Part shown: piece by piece, positions 833 to 63,829 of the stretch
Position numbering within the stretch: the stretch's first letter is position 1
Layout of the letters: the number at the start of each line of letters is the position of its first letter
From: Paraburkholderia ginsengiterrae
GTDB lineage: Bacteria > Pseudomonadota > Gammaproteobacteria > Burkholderiales > Burkholderiaceae
Direction: 5' to 3'
Assembly (NCBI RefSeq): GCF_001645125.1
Contig: NZ_LXKA01000110.1
Span: 248,001-312,000 of the forward strand
DNA length: 64,000 bases
Program-made: the position numbers and the translations under genes
The notes under the pieces: generated by a model
Told to the model about the DNA's origin: nothing
Database searches by the model: none
What the model saw: the letters and a program-made list of their open reading frames with translations, nothing else

Positions 833-2461
833 TTAGCCCTTCAAGGTCTGTTCCAGCACGTGCAATTCGTGGTTCAGTTGCGCGTCCTTGCTGCGCTCAT
901 CCGCAATCTTGCGCACCGCGTGCAGCACCGTGGTGTGGTCGCGCCCGCCGAACAGCTCGCCGATCTCCGGCAAGCTCTTCTGGGTCAGCTCCTTCGCCAG
1001 ATACATAGCGATCTGCCGCGGCCGCGCAATGTTCGCCGGACGCTTCTTCGAATACATATCCGCGACCTTGATGCTGTAGAAGTCAGCCGTGGTCTTCTGG
1101 ATGTTTTCCACCGAAATCTGCCGGTTCTGTACCGTCAGCAGGTCTTTCAGCGCTTCTTTCGTCACTTCAATCGTGATTTCGCGGCCGTGGAACTTCGAGT
1201 ACGCGAGGATCTTGCGCAGCGCGCCTTCGAGTTCACGCACGTTCGAGCGCAAGTGCTTCGCGACGAAGAACGCGACGTCTTCATTCAGGCTCACGAACTC
1301 CGATTGCGCCTTGCGCATCAGAATCGCCACCCGCATTTCCAGCTCGGGCGGCTCGATCGCCACCGTCAGGCCGGAGTCGAAGCGCGAGATCAGGCGGTCG
1401 TCGATACCCGAAATTTCCTTCGGATACGTGTCGCTGGTGATGATCACCTGCGCCTTGTTCGCCACCAGCGCCTCGAACGCGTAGAAGAATTCCTCTTGTG
1501 TGCGCGACTTGCCTGAGAAAAATTGAATATCGTCGATCAGCAGCAGGTCGAGCGAGTGGTAATAGCGCTTGAAATCGTCGAACGCCTTGCGCTGGTACGC
1601 CTTCACCACGTCGGACACATACTGTTCCGCGTGAATGTAGCGAATCCGCGCGCCGGCCTTGTCCATCAGAAGCTGGTTGCCGATCGCGTGAATCAGGTGA
1701 GTCTTGCCCAGACCCACGCCGCCATACAGGAACAGTGGGTTGTACGAGATGCCCGGGTTGTCCGCGACCTGGATCGCCGCGGCGCGCGCCAGCTGGTTGG
1801 CCTTACCGGTCACGAAGTTGTCGAACGTCAGAACCGGGTTCAGCTTGGAGCGCTCGTACATCGAGTCGTTGTCGCCGCTACCCGCGGCGCCCGCGCCCTG
1901 GCCCGGACGCCACGTGCGGCGGGCCGCGGCGCGTTCGTTCGCGTCGAGGCTGGGGAGGTCGAGGTCGGCGGCATCGTCAGCGGCTGCGGCCGCTGCACGC
2001 GCATTGGCGTTCTGTTCGGCCGCCGCGCGTGCATTCGCGTTGAGGTTTGCCATCGCGCTGTTTGCGCTACCCATGCGCGCGGCCTGCGCTGCCTGCACGG
2101 CGCCGACGGCGGCGTCCACCGCTGCCGCAACGCCGGCGTTACCGGCGAGCGAGCCTGGCGAGGAAGCTGGACGTGCCGGTGCCGGCGCGGCTGGCGCGGG
2201 CGCGCGCATGCCGGCTTTCGGATCCAGCACGAATTGCACGTCGACCGGAGCGTGCCAGAAATCGCGGGCCATATCCGCGATACGTCCGGAGAACTGGCTC
2301 TTGACCCAGTCGAGCTTGAAACGGTTCGGCGCGGCGATGCTAAGCGTGTTCGCAGCGGCGTCGAAGGCGACCGGGGCCAACGGTTTGATCCACGTCACAT
2401 ACTGCTGGGGCGTAAGCTCACGCTCCAGCAATGCGGAACAGTGTTGCCAGAAATCGTTCAT
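833..2461 (-). CDS. dnaA: Chromosomal replication initiator protein DnaA
   Basis: Initiator AAA+ ATPase that binds 9-bp DnaA boxes and opens the origin. The 542-residue product has domain I ([20 protein letters not shown]), a long Ala-rich low-complexity domain II at about residues 85-195, then the AAA+ core with Walker [11 protein letters not shown] and Walker [11 protein letters not shown]. Domain IV ends with the DnaA-box-binding signature [11 protein letters not shown]. An in-frame start lies 39 codons upstream, but the conserved MNDFWQ start at 2461 is preferred. The expanded Ala-rich linker is commonly seen in Burkholderia. It is divergent from rpmH, with a DnaA box in the intervening spacer. 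Confidence 0.98.
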
Positions 2462-2669
2462 CGAGTTGCTGTCGTTATGGTGTGCACGGCGGTTCGCCGC
2501 TGCCCCTGTCGCGCGTACGCAACAAGGCCCTGAGCAGCCGGACAAACCAGGCGCAATGGCCCCAGGCGCTTGTGCCACAAGGGTTTGCGGGTCAAGCGAG
2601 CCGGAGCGGCGTGCAGCATTTTTGGGAAGTAAGGCGAGATTCTAACGCCAAATCGGAGCCGAAAGGGAG

Positions 2670-2678
2670 TTATCCACA
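2670..2678 (+). promoter_or_regulatory. DnaA box (TTATCCACA)
   Basis: Perfect match to the 9-bp DnaA consensus, about 210 bp upstream of the dnaA start. Likely used for dnaA autoregulation and/or origin function. Confidence 0.7.
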
Positions 2679-2733
2679 GGGCCTGATCACCTGGCGAATC
2701 GGACCCGGCGCGCGGCTGAACCAGGCTAAACTA

Positions 2734-2762
2734 TTGACGGCCAACGGTAAACGGGTTTAAAT
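2734..2762 (+). promoter_or_regulatory. Putative sigma70 promoter for rpmH operon
   Basis: TTGACG (2734-2739), a 17-bp spacer and TTAAAT (2757-2762) face rpmH, about 90 bp upstream of its start. The spacer contains the GGTAAAC motif. Inference from consensus matching only. Confidence 0.5.
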
Positions 2763-2854
2763 AGCGGGTTCCGCGAAAACCAATTCAGTAAACCTCCGGC
2801 CATTGCGCTTTCAGCGATGATCGCGCGGTTATTTTTCGATCAAGTGAGAGCAAC

Positions 2855-2989
2855 ATGAAACGTACTTACCAACCTTCCGTTACCCGTCGCAAGCGCACCC
2901 ACGGCTTCCGCGTTCGCATGAAGACCGCAGGTGGCCGCAAGGTCATCAACGCACGTCGCGCGAAGGGCCGCAAGCGCCTCGCCATCTAA
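2855..2989 (+). CDS. rpmH: 50S ribosomal protein L34
   Basis: 44-residue basic protein beginning [20 protein letters not shown] and ending [11 protein letters not shown], a canonical L34 of normal length in the large ribosomal subunit. It is too short for many ORF finders. It heads the rpmH-rnpA-yidD-yidC cluster, with rnpA starting within 15-85 bp. The spacing gtgagagcaac before the ATG gives a modest Shine-Dalgarno. Confidence 0.98.
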
Positions 2990-32434: not shown

Positions 32435-32552
32435 GTCGAACGCCCCTTGGCCGGCTCACCGAACGGATGGAATAGCCAGTGTAGAAGAAAGGGCGGGGCT
32501 GCGAGTGCGAGTCGTGCAAACGCGGCGAGGGTCAGATCCCAGAGTACGGACG

Positions 32553-32582
32553 AAAAAAAGCCCGCTCTATGTGGAGCGGGCT
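32553..32582 (-). terminator. Terminator of the candidate sRNA
   Basis: Perfect 9-bp stem 32559-32567 / 32574-32582 with T7 on the minus strand. No minus-strand protein gene lies upstream, so it must end a short RNA. Confidence 0.8.
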
Positions 32583-32616
32583 GAATCCATATCAGGAGGA
32601 GACATGGAGGAGACAG
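32553..32616 (-). ncRNA. Candidate trans-acting sRNA with duplicated anti-Shine-Dalgarno motifs
   Basis: On the minus strand a promoter (TTGCGT, 17 bp, TATATT) precedes a ~60-nt transcript ending in a strong terminator: stem AGCCCGCTC/GAGCGGGCT with 6-nt loop and T7. The unstructured 5' part carries two copies of UCUCCUCC separated by AUG, complementary to Shine-Dalgarno sequences. The layout matches short CU-rich Hfq-type sRNAs such as the NcS27 class I recall from Burkholderia cenocepacia. Identity with that family is not verified. Confidence 0.65.
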
Positions 32617-60002: not shown

Positions 60003-60036
60003 CTTCCTGCTGGATCCCGTTTACCAGCCAGTCAAG

Positions 60037-60060
60037 TTATCCACCGAAAGTTGTGGATAA
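60037..60060. promoter_or_regulatory. Pair of opposed DnaA boxes
   Basis: TTATCCACC (60037-60045, plus, one mismatch) faces TGTGGATAA (60052-60060, perfect on minus) with a 6-bp gap. This forms a dyad. Confidence 0.7.
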
Positions 60061-60231
60061 CCGCGCCGTTTACCGGCGCAACTCGTGTGGAGCCGTTGTG
60101 GACGTAAACGGGGTAACTTTGCCGCCGCCGAAAATCGCAAAAAGTTGCCCTTGTATACCCGCTACTCCCGCACACCCTGTGCATTCGGTTATGCCGTCCG
60201 CAAACTGATGATTCATTTCGGTAAACAGGAG

Positions 60232-60240
60232 TTATCCACA
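60232..60240 (+). promoter_or_regulatory. DnaA box (TTATCCACA)
   Basis: Perfect 9-mer, 6 bp after a GGTAAAC motif (60220-60226). Confidence 0.7.
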
Positions 60241-60252
60241 GAAAGCGAGGCA

Positions 60253-60273
60253 GCTTGTTAACTGTTACTACGT
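60253..60273 (+). repeat. 21-bp inverted repeat, left copy (partner at 63409-63429)
   Basis: Begins GCTTGTTAACT and ends TACTACGT; matches the reverse complement of 63409-63429 at 19 of 21 positions. Followed immediately by GTATAC. Confidence 0.75.
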
Positions 60274-60848
60274 ATACATACGGTAAACCTGTATACAGCA
60301 AGACCGTAGCTGGGCCAGAGATTGCCGCCTGAGTTCGGCGTCGCCCAACCCGGCGCCAAAACGACCTGGACAATGTCCCCAAAAGCACATCTGCCTCGTT
60401 CAAACTAGCCAGGCGGGTAGCCGATTTCGGCGGTAAACGGTCGCTTTTTCCTCGTACGAGCGAGATGACGTACGTTTTTACCGTTTTGCCTGCATGTTCG
60501 TGTCTTTTCGGTTGAAGCTGAAAAAGCTATGGCACAATCGCCGTTCTTTTCCGCGTCGTACCTTGGCTCCACATCGGTACGGGCAAGTGGAACGGTGCCG
60601 GTCAATCAGAATCTGATTCAAAGTCGGCAGCGTTCTTTCACCGTGCCGTGCCGGTTGCCACGGCCGCACTCTCGGATGCGCCGGACTCCCCGCGGCTGTG
60701 GCGCATTCAGATCATCCGATCGTTGAAAACTCGCAACGCGGGCTACGCGAAGCGATCGCGACAGTGAGCGCCTCATGCGCTCACCCGCCTGCCGGCGTTG
60801 GCGCCGGTTCGTGTCGTCTGCCGTTGCTGCAAAGGAGAACCCATCACG

Positions 60849-62054
60849 ATGAATTCGGCGTTTTCATTTTTTCCAGCCTGGCCGCTCGCACCCGATGCCA
60901 TTTTTTGGGCCGGTCTTGCATTGCTTGCCGCAGGTCTGTGCGGTGAACTTTGCTATCGCGCGTGGCGTTTGCCGCGTATTTCCGGGTACGCGGTCATCGG
61001 TCTGGCTGCCGGCGCGGCCGGCTCGGGCGTGATCGATGCGGAGTCCGCGAGCGCCGCGCGGCCGTTGCTCGATGTCGCGCTCGGCTTGCTGCTGTTCGAA
61101 CTCGGCAGCCGGCTCGATCTGCGCTGGATTCGCCGCAACCCCTGGATGATTCTGTCGAGCGTGGCCGAAGCCACGCTGACTTTCGCACTCGTCTTGCCGG
61201 TCTTGCTGTTCCTGAAGGTGCCGCTGATGGTCGCGACGGTGCTCGCCGCGATTGCCATGGCGACGTCTCCGGCCATGGTGATTCAGCTCAAAACGGAACT
61301 GCGCGCGGAAGGACAGGTGACCCAGCGCCTGTTGACCTTGACCGCGCTGAACAGCATGTATGCCGTGGTGATTGAAAAACTCGTGTCGAGCTGGCTGCAT
61401 CAGGAGGCATACGGCAACGTCTTCGCGACCATTTTGCAGCCGCTTTATCTGCTGGTCGGCTCGCTCGTGCTCGCGTATCTGCTCGCGCGCACCTGTACGT
61501 TCTTTTATCGCCGGCTGAACATGCAGGACGAGCACTCGTTTGTCGCGTTGTTCGGCCTCGTGCTGCTGGCCATAGCGGTGGCGCATCTGTTCAAGCTGTC
61601 GACGATTCTCGCGCTGCTGGCCGCCGGCATCATTGTGAAGAATCTCGAAGCACGTCCGCAGTTGTGGCCGGAGAATTTCGGTACGGCCGGCTGGTTGTTG
61701 ACCGTGATTCTGTTCGTACTGACGCTCACGTCGTTCGAATGGCGAGACATTGCGCTCGGCGGTGTCGCGGCGCTAGGTCTGATCGTTGCGCGGCTCCTGG
61801 CGAAACTGGTCGGCGTGCTGGCGTTCGCCAAGCCGAGCGGTTTGAACTGGAAGCAGGGGATGGCGCTTGGTTTGTCGTTGTCACCCATGTCTGCGATGGC
61901 GTATCTGCTGGTCGACGATACCTACAATCTGTATCCCAACTTCGATCCGCAACTGCGCGCGATCGTGATGTGTTCGATTGTCGTGCTGCAGATTCTCGGG
62001 CCATGGCTCGTCTATCGCAGCCTCGCACTGGTGGCCGAGCGACGCGAAGCGTGA
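60849..62054 (+). CDS. CPA2-type cation:proton antiporter
   Basis: 401 aa, about 12 TM helices in the KefB/NhaS/GerN-like Na+(K+)/H+ exchanger fold: AIFWAGLALLAAGLCGELCYRAWRLPRISGYAVIGLAAG, LLDVALGLLLFELGSRLDLRWI (GxxLFxxG-like), VLAAIAMATSPAMVIQL and LKLSTILALLAAGIIVKN-type text. No C-terminal RCK/TrkA domain. ATG 60849 follows AAAGGAG at a long spacing; a GTG further upstream is less likely. Ion specificity unknown. Confidence 0.88.
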   Translation: MNSAFSFFPAWPLAPDAIFWAGLALLAAGLCGELCYRAWRLPRISGYAVIGLAAGAAGSGVIDAESASAARPLLDVALGLLLFELGSRLDLRWIRRNPWMILSSVAEATLTFALVLPVLLFLKVPLMVATVLAAIAMATSPAMVIQLKTELRAEGQVTQRLLTLTALNSMYAVVIEKLVSSWLHQEAYGNVFATILQPLYLLVGSLVLAYLLARTCTFFYRRLNMQDEHSFVALFGLVLLAIAVAHLFKLSTILALLAAGIIVKNLEARPQLWPENFGTAGWLLTVILFVLTLTSFEWRDIALGGVAALGLIVARLLAKLVGVLAFAKPSGLNWKQGMALGLSLSPMSAMAYLLVDDTYNLYPNFDPQLRAIVMCSIVVLQILGPWLVYRSLALVAERREA

Positions 62055-62125
62055 GCGCGCGTCAGGCAGCGCACCGCGTTGCTTGCTGGTTGATAGGCTT
62101 TATCCGACTTACATCCGATTCAAAA

Positions 62126-62158
62126 CCGGCCGGCCATGTGAGCCACACCCGGCCGGCC
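62126..62158. repeat. GC-rich hairpin upstream of ybdK-type gene
   Basis: CCGGCCGGCC occurs twice (62126-62135 and 62149-62158), self-complementary with a 13-nt loop and no T-tract. It could be a weak terminator or attenuator. Confidence 0.4.
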
Positions 62159-62174
62159 TGACTTAGGGGACGCC

Positions 62175-63290
62175 ATGTCACTCGAACCCTTCATCGATTC
62201 GAAACCGTTCACCTTCGGTGTCGAACTCGAGATGCAGATCGTCAATACGCACGACTATGATCTGACCAAAGCCGGCTCGGATCTGCTGCGTCTCATCAAG
62301 GACGAAAAAATCCCCGGCAACATCACGCCGGAAATTACCGAAAGCATGATCGAGTTGTCGACCGGCATCTGCACGACGCATGAACAGGCCGTCACCGACT
62401 TGCGCAAGATTCGCGACACGCTGGTTTCGGCCGCGGACCATCTGAATGTTGGTTTGTGCGGCGGCGGAACGCATGCATTCCAGCAATGGAGCGAGCGGAA
62501 GATTGTCGATACGCCGCGCTTTCAGTATTTGTCGGAGTTGTACGGCTATCTCGCCAAGCAGTTCACCGTATTCGGCCAGCACGTGCACATCGGCTGCCCG
62601 GATCCGAACAGCGCGCTGTACCTGCTGCATTCCATGTCGCGCTTCATTCCGCACTTCATCGCGTTGACCGCCTCGTCGCCATTCGTGCAGGGTGTCGATA
62701 CCGGTTTTCATTCGGCACGACTGAATTCCGTGTTCGCGTTCCCGCTGTCGGGCCGCGCGCCGTTTGTGCTGACGTGGGACAGCTTTGAGGAATATTTCTC
62801 GAAGATGGTCCACACCGGTGTGGTCAACAGTATGAAAGACTTTTACTGGGACATCCGGCCAAAACCGGGCTTCGGCACGATAGAGGTTCGCGTAATGGAT
62901 ACGCCCTTGTCGGTGGATCGCGCCGCGGCGATTGCCTGCTACATCCAGACGCTGGCGCGCCATCTGCTGCTCGACAAACCGATCTCGCCGCATGAAGACG
63001 ACTATCTCGTCTATACGTTCAACCGCTTCGAAGCATGCCGTTTCGGTCTTGCCGGCACCTGCATCAATCCGCAAACGGGCGAACGCAAGACGATTTCCGA
63101 AGACATCCTCGAAACGCTGGACCGGATCGCTCCGCACGCCGAAGCGTTGGGCTCGGGCAATGCGCTTGCAGAAATCGGCGCGATCGCGCGCGGGCAGGTC
63201 AATGATGCGACCTGGTTGCGCGGTGTGGTGGAACGGGAAAAGTCCTTGCACGAGGCCGTGCGGCAGCAATGTTTGCAGTGGCGAGCCTAG
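62175..63290 (+). CDS. ybdK: GCS2-family carboxylate-amine ligase (YbdK-like)
   Basis: 371 aa. GCS2 features: [20 protein letters not shown] (metal/ATP-binding Glu residues), [73 protein letters not shown] and [15 protein letters not shown]. The E. coli homologue has weak glutamate-cysteine ligase activity. Since a GshA is present (35157), this one may make another gamma-glutamyl or amide product. ATG follows a short spacer with GGGGACGCC. Confidence 0.9.
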
Positions 63291-63324
63291 CCGGAGACAG
63301 GTTTGGTTACGTCAAATCGTAAGG

Positions 63325-63349
63325 AAACCCGCCGTGAGCGGGTTTTTTT
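63325..63349 (+). terminator. Terminator after ybdK-type gene
   Basis: AAACCCGC-cgtga-GCGGGTTT followed by T-rich sequence, 35 bp past the stop. Confidence 0.85.
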
Positions 63350-63408
63350 ATAAAAATTATTTTTTCAGTTCGAGGCGCTTCAGGTTTTTATAAAGTTAAC
63401 GTATACAA

Positions 63409-63429
63409 ACGTAGTAGTAGTTAACAAGC
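63409..63429 (-). repeat. 21-bp inverted repeat, right copy (partner at 60253-60273)
   Basis: Reverse complement begins GCTTGTTAACT and ends TACTACGT; two differences from the left copy. It is also flanked by GTATAC (63401-63406). Confidence 0.75.
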
Positions 63430-63441
63430 ATTGCCGCGGCC

Positions 63442-63450
63442 TGTGGACAA
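63442..63450 (-). promoter_or_regulatory. DnaA box, one mismatch (TTGTCCACA)
   Basis: TGTGGACAA on the plus strand, 40 bp from the AT-rich tract. Confidence 0.5.
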
Positions 63451-63611
63451 CTGAATAATTTCCTGTAAAGTCAATGCGCTGCGTAAACTATAAGTAGGCG
63501 GATCGAGGGTGCGTCGGCACCGGTATACGAGGACAACTCTGGCGAGGGCAAACGGGGCCTGGGCGCTTATCAAGAATCGACGCACATGCCATCCCTCGAG
63601 TTTTCCCATGG

Positions 63612-63620
63612 TTATCCACA
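63612..63620 (+). promoter_or_regulatory. DnaA box (TTATCCACA)
   Basis: Perfect 9-mer about 210 bp before the marR-type start. Confidence 0.7.
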
Positions 63621-63829
63621 GGTTACGATGAACAAGTTAGCTGTACGATTCGCTTCTCTCGCATAGAATGTCGTTTGCGCCGCTTTGGCTTGCAAGGCGG
63701 TAAATTTTTGAGATAGTAGAGAACGTCTTGTCCGCAGTTGGGCGAGGCCACCCCACACAAGCTACGGGCGCGGTCGGCGAGCGGTTCGCCGGCCTTGTAC
63801 GAAAGCTGTAAATAAACCAATCGAAGATT

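Follow-up and report, generated by a model that had tools for sequence, protein, structure and literature searches.

The chromosomal origin of replication (oriC) of Helicobacter pylori is bipartite, and its two clusters of DnaA boxes flank the dnaA gene. Other DnaA-binding sites, such as datA, DARS or DnaA-box clusters, are found distant from oriC on the same chromosome, and in Escherichia coli Dam methylation at GATC marks newly copied, hemimethylated origins. Origin-marking by Dam at GATC or by CcrM at GANTC has been discussed in this connection (PMC7364216, PMC5390034). In the basal unwinding system (BUS) of Bacillus subtilis, a DnaA box with at most two mismatches is followed by a spacer and by DnaA-trios of the form 3'-NAN-5', most frequently 3'-GAT-5', which start at most 16 bp from the box; tandem boxes in the published search lie at most 3 bp apart (PMC8287927). 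Closer to the present subject, chromosome 1 (c1) of Burkholderia cenocepacia replicates bidirectionally from one region, mapped in 10-kb bins, and its exact origin was left open because its elements are dispersed (PMC4948915). In Burkholderia pseudomallei, the DnaA signal was strongest on an amplicon that lies near the skew switch and carries two opposed boxes and one degenerate box, the comparison amplicon having one full and one degenerate box (PMC12914326). Here we describe a proposed oriC in a stretch of 64,000 nucleotides from Paraburkholderia ginsengiterrae (C1:248001-312000, “the window”), where a cation:proton antiporter gene and ybdK are flanked by two homologous modules, termed L (left) and R (right).

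The antiporter-ybdK locus is well supported as the oriC of the main chromosome. Over the gap-free contig C1 (516,557 bp, 62.4% GC, joined from 25 adjoining stretches of an 8.53-Mb assembly in 393 contigs), the cumulative GC-skew minimum falls at window position 60893, between the L and R regions. Five DnaA boxes (at most one mismatch) within 3.6 kb form the densest group among the 37 boxes of the contig, and beside them lies an AT-rich element (Table 1), which is matched in AT content by a fraction of 9.5e-5 of the contig's 60-mers. Two perfect sites resembling what we take to be the parS motif are located 28.5 kb to the right of the skew minimum.

The same locus is marked by skew in relatives. 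In ~400-kb stretches of four genomes the minimum lies 1.0-2.5 kb from the presumed origin, namely 1.2 kb away in G329, 2.5 kb in G311 and 1.3 kb in G136, while in G375 (400-kb stretch) it is found at 1,261,495, between L (1,260,832) and R (1,264,033). On the 3.69-Mb chromosome of G329, represented by 20 samples of 20 kb, skew is positive from 40 kb to 1.70 Mb and negative between 1.88 and 3.56 Mb, the sample at 776 kb (-0.003) being the sole exception on the positive side, which gives the chromosome a single origin side and a single terminus side; in a densely sampled stretch the switch falls at the modules near 3.65 Mb.

What the initial annotation had read from the letters holds. It had proposed a split origin or a DnaA-control locus on the basis of DnaA boxes in two gene-poor regions, an AT-rich tract in the right one and an inverted 21-bp repeat beside GTATAC. 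All of these boxes and the tract are in place (Table 1), the only other perfect box of the window is at 2670, the repeat (60253-60273 and 63409-63429) agrees at 19 of 21 positions, and six of the seven GTATAC sites of the window lie in or adjoin the two spacers (60153, 60272, 60291, 63401, 63523, 63842). The split arrangement is borne out by the anatomy, which consists of two inverted homologous modules around gene-sized DNA. The proposal had been made to depend on a skew minimum away from dnaA-rpmH and on spacers conserved in relatives; the minimum indeed lies at 60893, and both spacers are kept across genera. The annotation also objected that rpmH-yidC would be lagging-strand, which is correct, but the objection is weak, since dnaA itself would be leading.

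An origin next to dnaA-rpmH was rejected: this spacer has one perfect box, but neither a skew minimum nor a match to the module pattern described below. The true origin can differ from the annotated oriC site (PMC13342612). The dnaA-rpmH spacer (window 2579-2855) contains two GTWWAC sites besides its perfect DnaA box, which ends in CACAG; they may serve dnaA autoregulation. Elsewhere on the contig, four one-mismatch boxes occur within 1.9 kb at C1 231508-233338 (window about -16.5 to -14.7 kb), with no module there.

Table 1. Features of the proposed origin locus and dnaA, in window coordinates
Feature	Position	Strand	Evidence
dnaA, 58 kb from the proposed origin	833..2578	-	TIGR00362 above cut-off
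Nine GTWWAC in 278 bp, the contig's densest such stretch	60019..60296		
L module, proposed oriC core, ~260-280 bp	60026..60303	+	L profile from 73 relatives (nhmmer), 256.5 bits, E 1e-76
DnaA box TTATCCACC, 1 mismatch	60037..60045	+	
DnaA box TGTGGATAA, perfect	60052..60060	-	
L core DnaA box TTATCCACA, perfect, overlapping CACAG methylation motif	60232..60240	+	
Conserved CTTGTTAA and three DnaA-trio-like triplets CTG TTA CTA, 13 bp past L core box	60254..60270	+	
GTATAC/GTAAAC-rich arm past the triplets, candidate unwinding side of L	60271..60303	+	
Cation:proton antiporter gene, between modules	60849..62054	+	PF00999; TIGR00932 match below its cut-off
ybdK (carboxylate-amine ligase), between modules	62175..63290	+	NF010040 above cut-off
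AT-rich tract, candidate DNA unwinding element of R	63340..63399		73% AT
R module, inverted relative to L	63378..63666	-	nhmmer: R profile E 1.6e-76, L profile E 3e-23
Five GTWWAC in R	63395..63528		
Conserved CTTGTTAA and three DnaA-trio triplets CTA CTA CTA (this strand)	63412..63428	-	
R core DnaA box TGTGGACAA (TTGTCCACA), 1 mismatch	63442..63450	-	
R second DnaA box TTATCCACA, perfect, 170 bp from core box	63612..63620	+	

The 21-bp repeat turns out to be the core of a module of ~260 bp, and it sits in a longer aligned block made up of TTATCCACAG, a spacer and CTTGTTAACTNNTACTACGTATACATA. The modules read in the order TTRTCCACA, 13 bp, CTTGTTAA and DnaA-trio-like triplets. L and R each comprise a strong box, the fixed 13-bp spacer, CTTGTTAA, three triplets, an AT-richer arm (AT fraction 0.53 in L and 0.65 in R), a second box ~170-180 bp off and clustered GTWWAC sites. 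They are inward-facing and ~3 kb apart; L reads toward the antiporter gene and R toward ybdK, and the candidate unwinding sides are therefore turned toward one another. Both modules have three or more triplets with a central A on the trio strand, which are kept in relatives, and the R triplets are degraded in several of these (e.g., P. nodosa, P. sacchari and B. cenocepacia).

This composition invites comparison with described origins. Like the BUS of B. subtilis, the module combines a box, a spacer and at least three triplets with a central A on the trio strand (PMC8287927). It differs in the 21 bp that separate the first triplet (CTA/CTG) from the strong box in L and R, with the conserved CTTGTTAA inside, as well as in its two inverted copies 3 kb apart and its distal paralogues. 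Since 21 bp exceeds the 16-bp rule, filing the module as a BUS was rejected, and it is called BUS-like; TTGTTAACT, taken as a weak box, has four mismatches and a distance of 14 bp to the strong box. As in H. pylori, two DnaA-box clusters are set apart by gene-sized DNA; unlike there, the clusters belong to homologous modules that face each other around antiporter-ybdK, 58 kb from dnaA. The locus shares with B. cenocepacia oriC1 a skew-minimum region, dispersed DnaA boxes and an AT-rich block (PMC4948915), and the box make-up of L and R resembles that of the B. pseudomallei amplicon (PMC12914326).

The architecture was followed through 80 named relative loci, in a few of which the contig stops shortly after ybdK or near it; for the alignments, 23 (left) and 25 (right) rows were chosen out of 81, and the left anchor is absent in 11 of the 81. 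The 20 best named matches of ybdK (92-99% identity) are labelled Paraburkholderia or Burkholderia sp. In most of the 80 relatives the left region shows a plus-strand box, 15 bp, a minus-strand box, 180/181 bp and a plus-strand box, and the right region a minus-strand box, ~169 bp and a plus-strand box, an arrangement and spacing that recur across genera. The distance from the box (TTRTCCACN) to TTGTTAAC is exactly 14 bp in all 103 pairs from the 80 loci, with 0-40 bp allowed. L is found in 73 of the 80 loci and R, at up to three mismatches, in 44, and nhmmer profiles were built from these 73 and 44; Robbsia (two tandem modules) was omitted by name from the L profile. A box at the position of 60052..60060, 180/181 bp before the core box, is present in 68 of the 73 L modules.

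For wider searches a 39-bp module pattern was used, consisting of the box, 13 bp, CTTGTTAAC, N3 and TACTA, with up to three mismatches allowed. It occurs in 217 of 350 genomes of the family and in 13 of 22 genera; the reversed pattern as a control gave three matches in the same table. All 54 genomes of the own genus carry it (14 with four copies, 27 with three and 13 with two). A genus that appears to be Burkholderia-like (g12) has mostly two copies and an apparently Pandoraea-like one (g11) mostly one, while g3 lacks the pattern and g24 has a single match in one genome. At the level of the order it is found in 11 of 200 genomes, seven of them outside the family, each of the seven with one copy at three mismatches. 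L is best read as the core module and R as a second one that is sometimes lost. In G015 (L154 6705 and 7197) and in Robbsia (L101), two modules in tandem, ~0.5 kb from one another, take the place of an L/R pair at the L position or close to it.

Two further full-length homologues lie outside the window: DL (distal-left) 112 kb left of L, and DR (distal-right) on contig C351, together referred to as class D. Exact copies of the 18-mer TTGTTAACN3TACTACG number three in the genome, in L, in R and at C1:196344-196361 (DL); a further copy, with two mismatches, is at C351:3550-3567 (DR). The 39-bp pattern matches L, R, DL and DR with no mismatch, and no fifth match was found in this genome at up to three mismatches. 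Over ~250 bp, the L profile recovers R (E 3e-23), DL (E 1.7e-24) and DR (E 1e-22). Its weaker matches (E 0.013-0.49) fall on modules on the opposite strand, the R profile gave one weak match outside modules (C1:70285-70210, E 0.38), and on the reversed contig neither profile gave a match up to E 1. DL and DR still have a core box with its spacer and triplets, and also an AT-rich arm (AT fraction 0.65) and a second box.

Because DR lies on a separate contig, its distance from L is not measurable here. In relatives in which ybdK or the L/R pair fixes L, distances worked out by hand, with sequence lengths used for circular wrap, put the distal copy on the left at about 48-122 kb and that on the right at about 144-304 kb from L (~190-300 kb in long contigs of the same genus). 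The DL and DR distances amount to 102 and 208 kb in G375, 53 and 222 kb in G329, 92 and 214 kb in G311, and 58 and 191 kb in G115. Outliers are an extra module in G049 (C1:769674), ~810 kb from the origin and far beyond the usual range, and an extra copy in G044 ~220 kb off, on the opposite arm from that of G094 (+144). The genes beside D modules are common within clades and partly between them, and the exact intergenic slot varies. According to their translations, ethanolamine-utilisation genes lie near DL, and EamA-type transporter and glmU-type genes near DR. Neighbouring genes as the reason for D modules were rejected, as the neighbours vary between clades. Translations also indicate two large-serine-recombinase-like and two ParB-like genes near DL (L012 10123-16448, C1 ~198.1-204.4 kb), perhaps an integrative element.

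A midpoint-rooted tree of 49 chosen modules separates R (support 0.98), D (0.84) and L including the module of Pandoraea (0.94), with several genera in each group. The exceptions are the “DL” copies of G311 and G329, which fall in the L group, and the R-position module of Pandoraea, which stands beside L; class therefore does not simply follow position. As L, R and D separate across genera, they look like old paralogues.

The GTATAC sites belong to a wider GTWWAC enrichment that the initial annotation had not seen. The contig has 98 GTWWAC in 516,557 bp, of which eight are in L, five in R and four in DL against 0.05 expected in each, and its 14 densest 278-bp stretches are all on or beside these three modules. 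DR has two against 0.07 expected. Palindromic hexamers of seven other classes with a similar composition occur 0-1 times per module. Among relatives, the mean per ~289 bp is 5.5 in 73 L modules, 3.5 in 44 R modules and 2.9 in 20 D modules (range 1-5; our own and the L-class “DL” of G311 and G329 included), against a background of 0.16. The genome has two PF01555 genes, the first of which was followed. It encodes an adenine methyltransferase of 301 amino acids (L256 1336-2241, between trpB- and trpA-like genes) that matches PDB 8urk, presumably the GTWWAC enzyme of B. cenocepacia, at E 2e-159, and by this similarity it is likely the GTWWAC enzyme here. Such an enzyme is reported to be conserved across Burkholderiaceae, and the same paper considers a Dam/CcrM-like mechanism unlikely for a GTWWAC cluster before the repA gene of a Ralstonia megaplasmid (PMC5390034). 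As in origins marked by Dam at GATC or CcrM at GANTC, targets of an adenine methyltransferase are crowded into the modules; the difference lies in the motif, which is GTWWAC.

These features suggest how the locus might operate. DnaA would load on the core box, extend onto the triplets and melt the adjoining arm, as in the basal unwinding system. Initiation would take place mainly at L, with R in an auxiliary role and maybe looped to L; a two-part function is plausible, and joint action of the two halves is what we infer. By analogy with Dam/GATC in E. coli, origins that have just been copied and are hemimethylated may be marked by GTWWAC methylation. The distal modules, possibly back-up or control sites, would most likely bind DnaA for control and retain some unwinding ability, be it residual or conditional.

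Taken as a whole, this explanation, an oriC at L/R with the mechanism and distal roles just outlined, appears to us highly probable. Several points weigh against it. The first triplet lies past the published 16-bp limit, and the L arm is moderately AT-rich, its value of 0.53 being reached by 3.2% of the contig's 60-mers. R is kept in just 44 of the 80 loci, and therefore two-part working is not universal; its loss or decay in many relatives argues that both halves are not always needed. Pandoraea has an R-position module only, which groups with the L class, and the count of GTWWAC in DR is low. Polarity of KOPS (E. coli motif) is absent, with 4 plus and 6 minus on the left and 6 plus and 5 minus on the right, and dnaA is 58 kb off. 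A rival account takes L as the sole origin and regards R and D as duplicates in decay that no longer have a function. In its favour, the triplets of R are degraded in P. nodosa, P. sacchari and B. cenocepacia, among others, and only two copies, at L and R, were found in G165, G145 and G081. Yet the R and D groups span genera and retain the exact spacing and the methylation sites, and in many genomes the D copies are still found at comparable distances, which leaves this account rather doubtful. We give almost no credence to the view that the modules are transcription-regulatory DnaA sites of adjoining genes and that the origin lies elsewhere near dnaA. L does precede the antiporter gene, and the dnaA-rpmH spacer likewise has a DnaA box and two GTWWAC, but the position of the skew minimum at L/R rather than dnaA largely refutes it, and the module persists while the genes beside D modules vary between clades.

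The suggestion of a DnaA-control locus, superfluous for L and R, is still live for the distal copies. They may be titration or reactivation sites of the datA, DARS or DnaA-box-cluster type, with L/R alone initiating, a serious possibility even if we lean against it. Their DnaA boxes and their placement on both arms ~50-300 kb from the origin suit dosage-sensitive control, and the skew shows one origin. Like datA and DARS, DL and DR are DnaA-box sites away from oriC; those sites are not known to have a triplet or AT unwinding part or to be full-length oriC homologues, whereas DL and DR have triplets and an AT arm and are thus not box clusters devoid of an unwinding element. Such an element would be superfluous for titration, yet D modules keep it. 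The same retention of core box, spacer, triplets, AT-rich arm and second box in DL and DR, together with the grouping of D modules across genera, speaks for a multi-origin chromosome, in which L/R is dominant and DL and DR also open and fire in some cells, spreading initiation over about 300 kb. In the own genome and in G375, skew reaches a local minimum at 1-2 kb from DL (searched in 30-kb ranges around DL), a hint only that DL fires. Averaged by hand over the range from 60 to 200 kb right of the origin, skew amounts to ~0.007-0.012 in the four DR-bearing genomes and to 0.029 in G136, a genome of another genus in which DR was not found and the one such genome compared. G136 nevertheless shares the strong skew beyond +200 kb; that step is therefore not DR-specific, and GC skew was not accepted as proof of DR firing. 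Skew neither proves nor excludes firing of DL or DR. The overall skew has a single minimum, and B. cenocepacia c1 replicates from one region, although a site ~50 kb off may escape the 10-kb bins (PMC4948915). On balance we consider a multi-origin chromosome distinctly unlikely. The same holds for its fullest form, which we would be surprised to see borne out: a natural multi-origin chromosome with as many as four homologous oriC modules, all competent for unwinding and belonging to three old classes, of which the distal ones fire at least conditionally and which GTWWAC methylation coordinates.

Apart from the origin, the only Rfam match of the window at the gathering threshold is RF02278, a Betaproteobacteria toxic small RNA (32552-32615, minus strand, 84.1 bits).

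The Burkholderia origin region and origin methylation were previously in print. In the main-text passages considered here, neither of the two Burkholderia studies brings up repeated modules, trios or distal paralogues (PMC4948915, PMC12914326), and among the matches listed from the open-licence literature there was nothing on repeated or paired origin modules, trios or distal paralogues in Burkholderia. The distal paralogues are the surprising part of the finding. The L/R locus provides a candidate, resolved to the base, for the place where replication of chromosome 1 begins in Burkholderia-type bacteria, a point left uncertain in the B. cenocepacia map (PMC4948915), and the module classes indicate that origin modules can duplicate and persist as distinct paralogues across genera. 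Two questions become testable: whether a natural bacterial chromosome uses more than one origin, as raised in a paper that saw no evidence then of two working origins on one bacterial chromosome (PMC4403523), and what purpose is served by the family-conserved GTWWAC methylation (PMC5390034).

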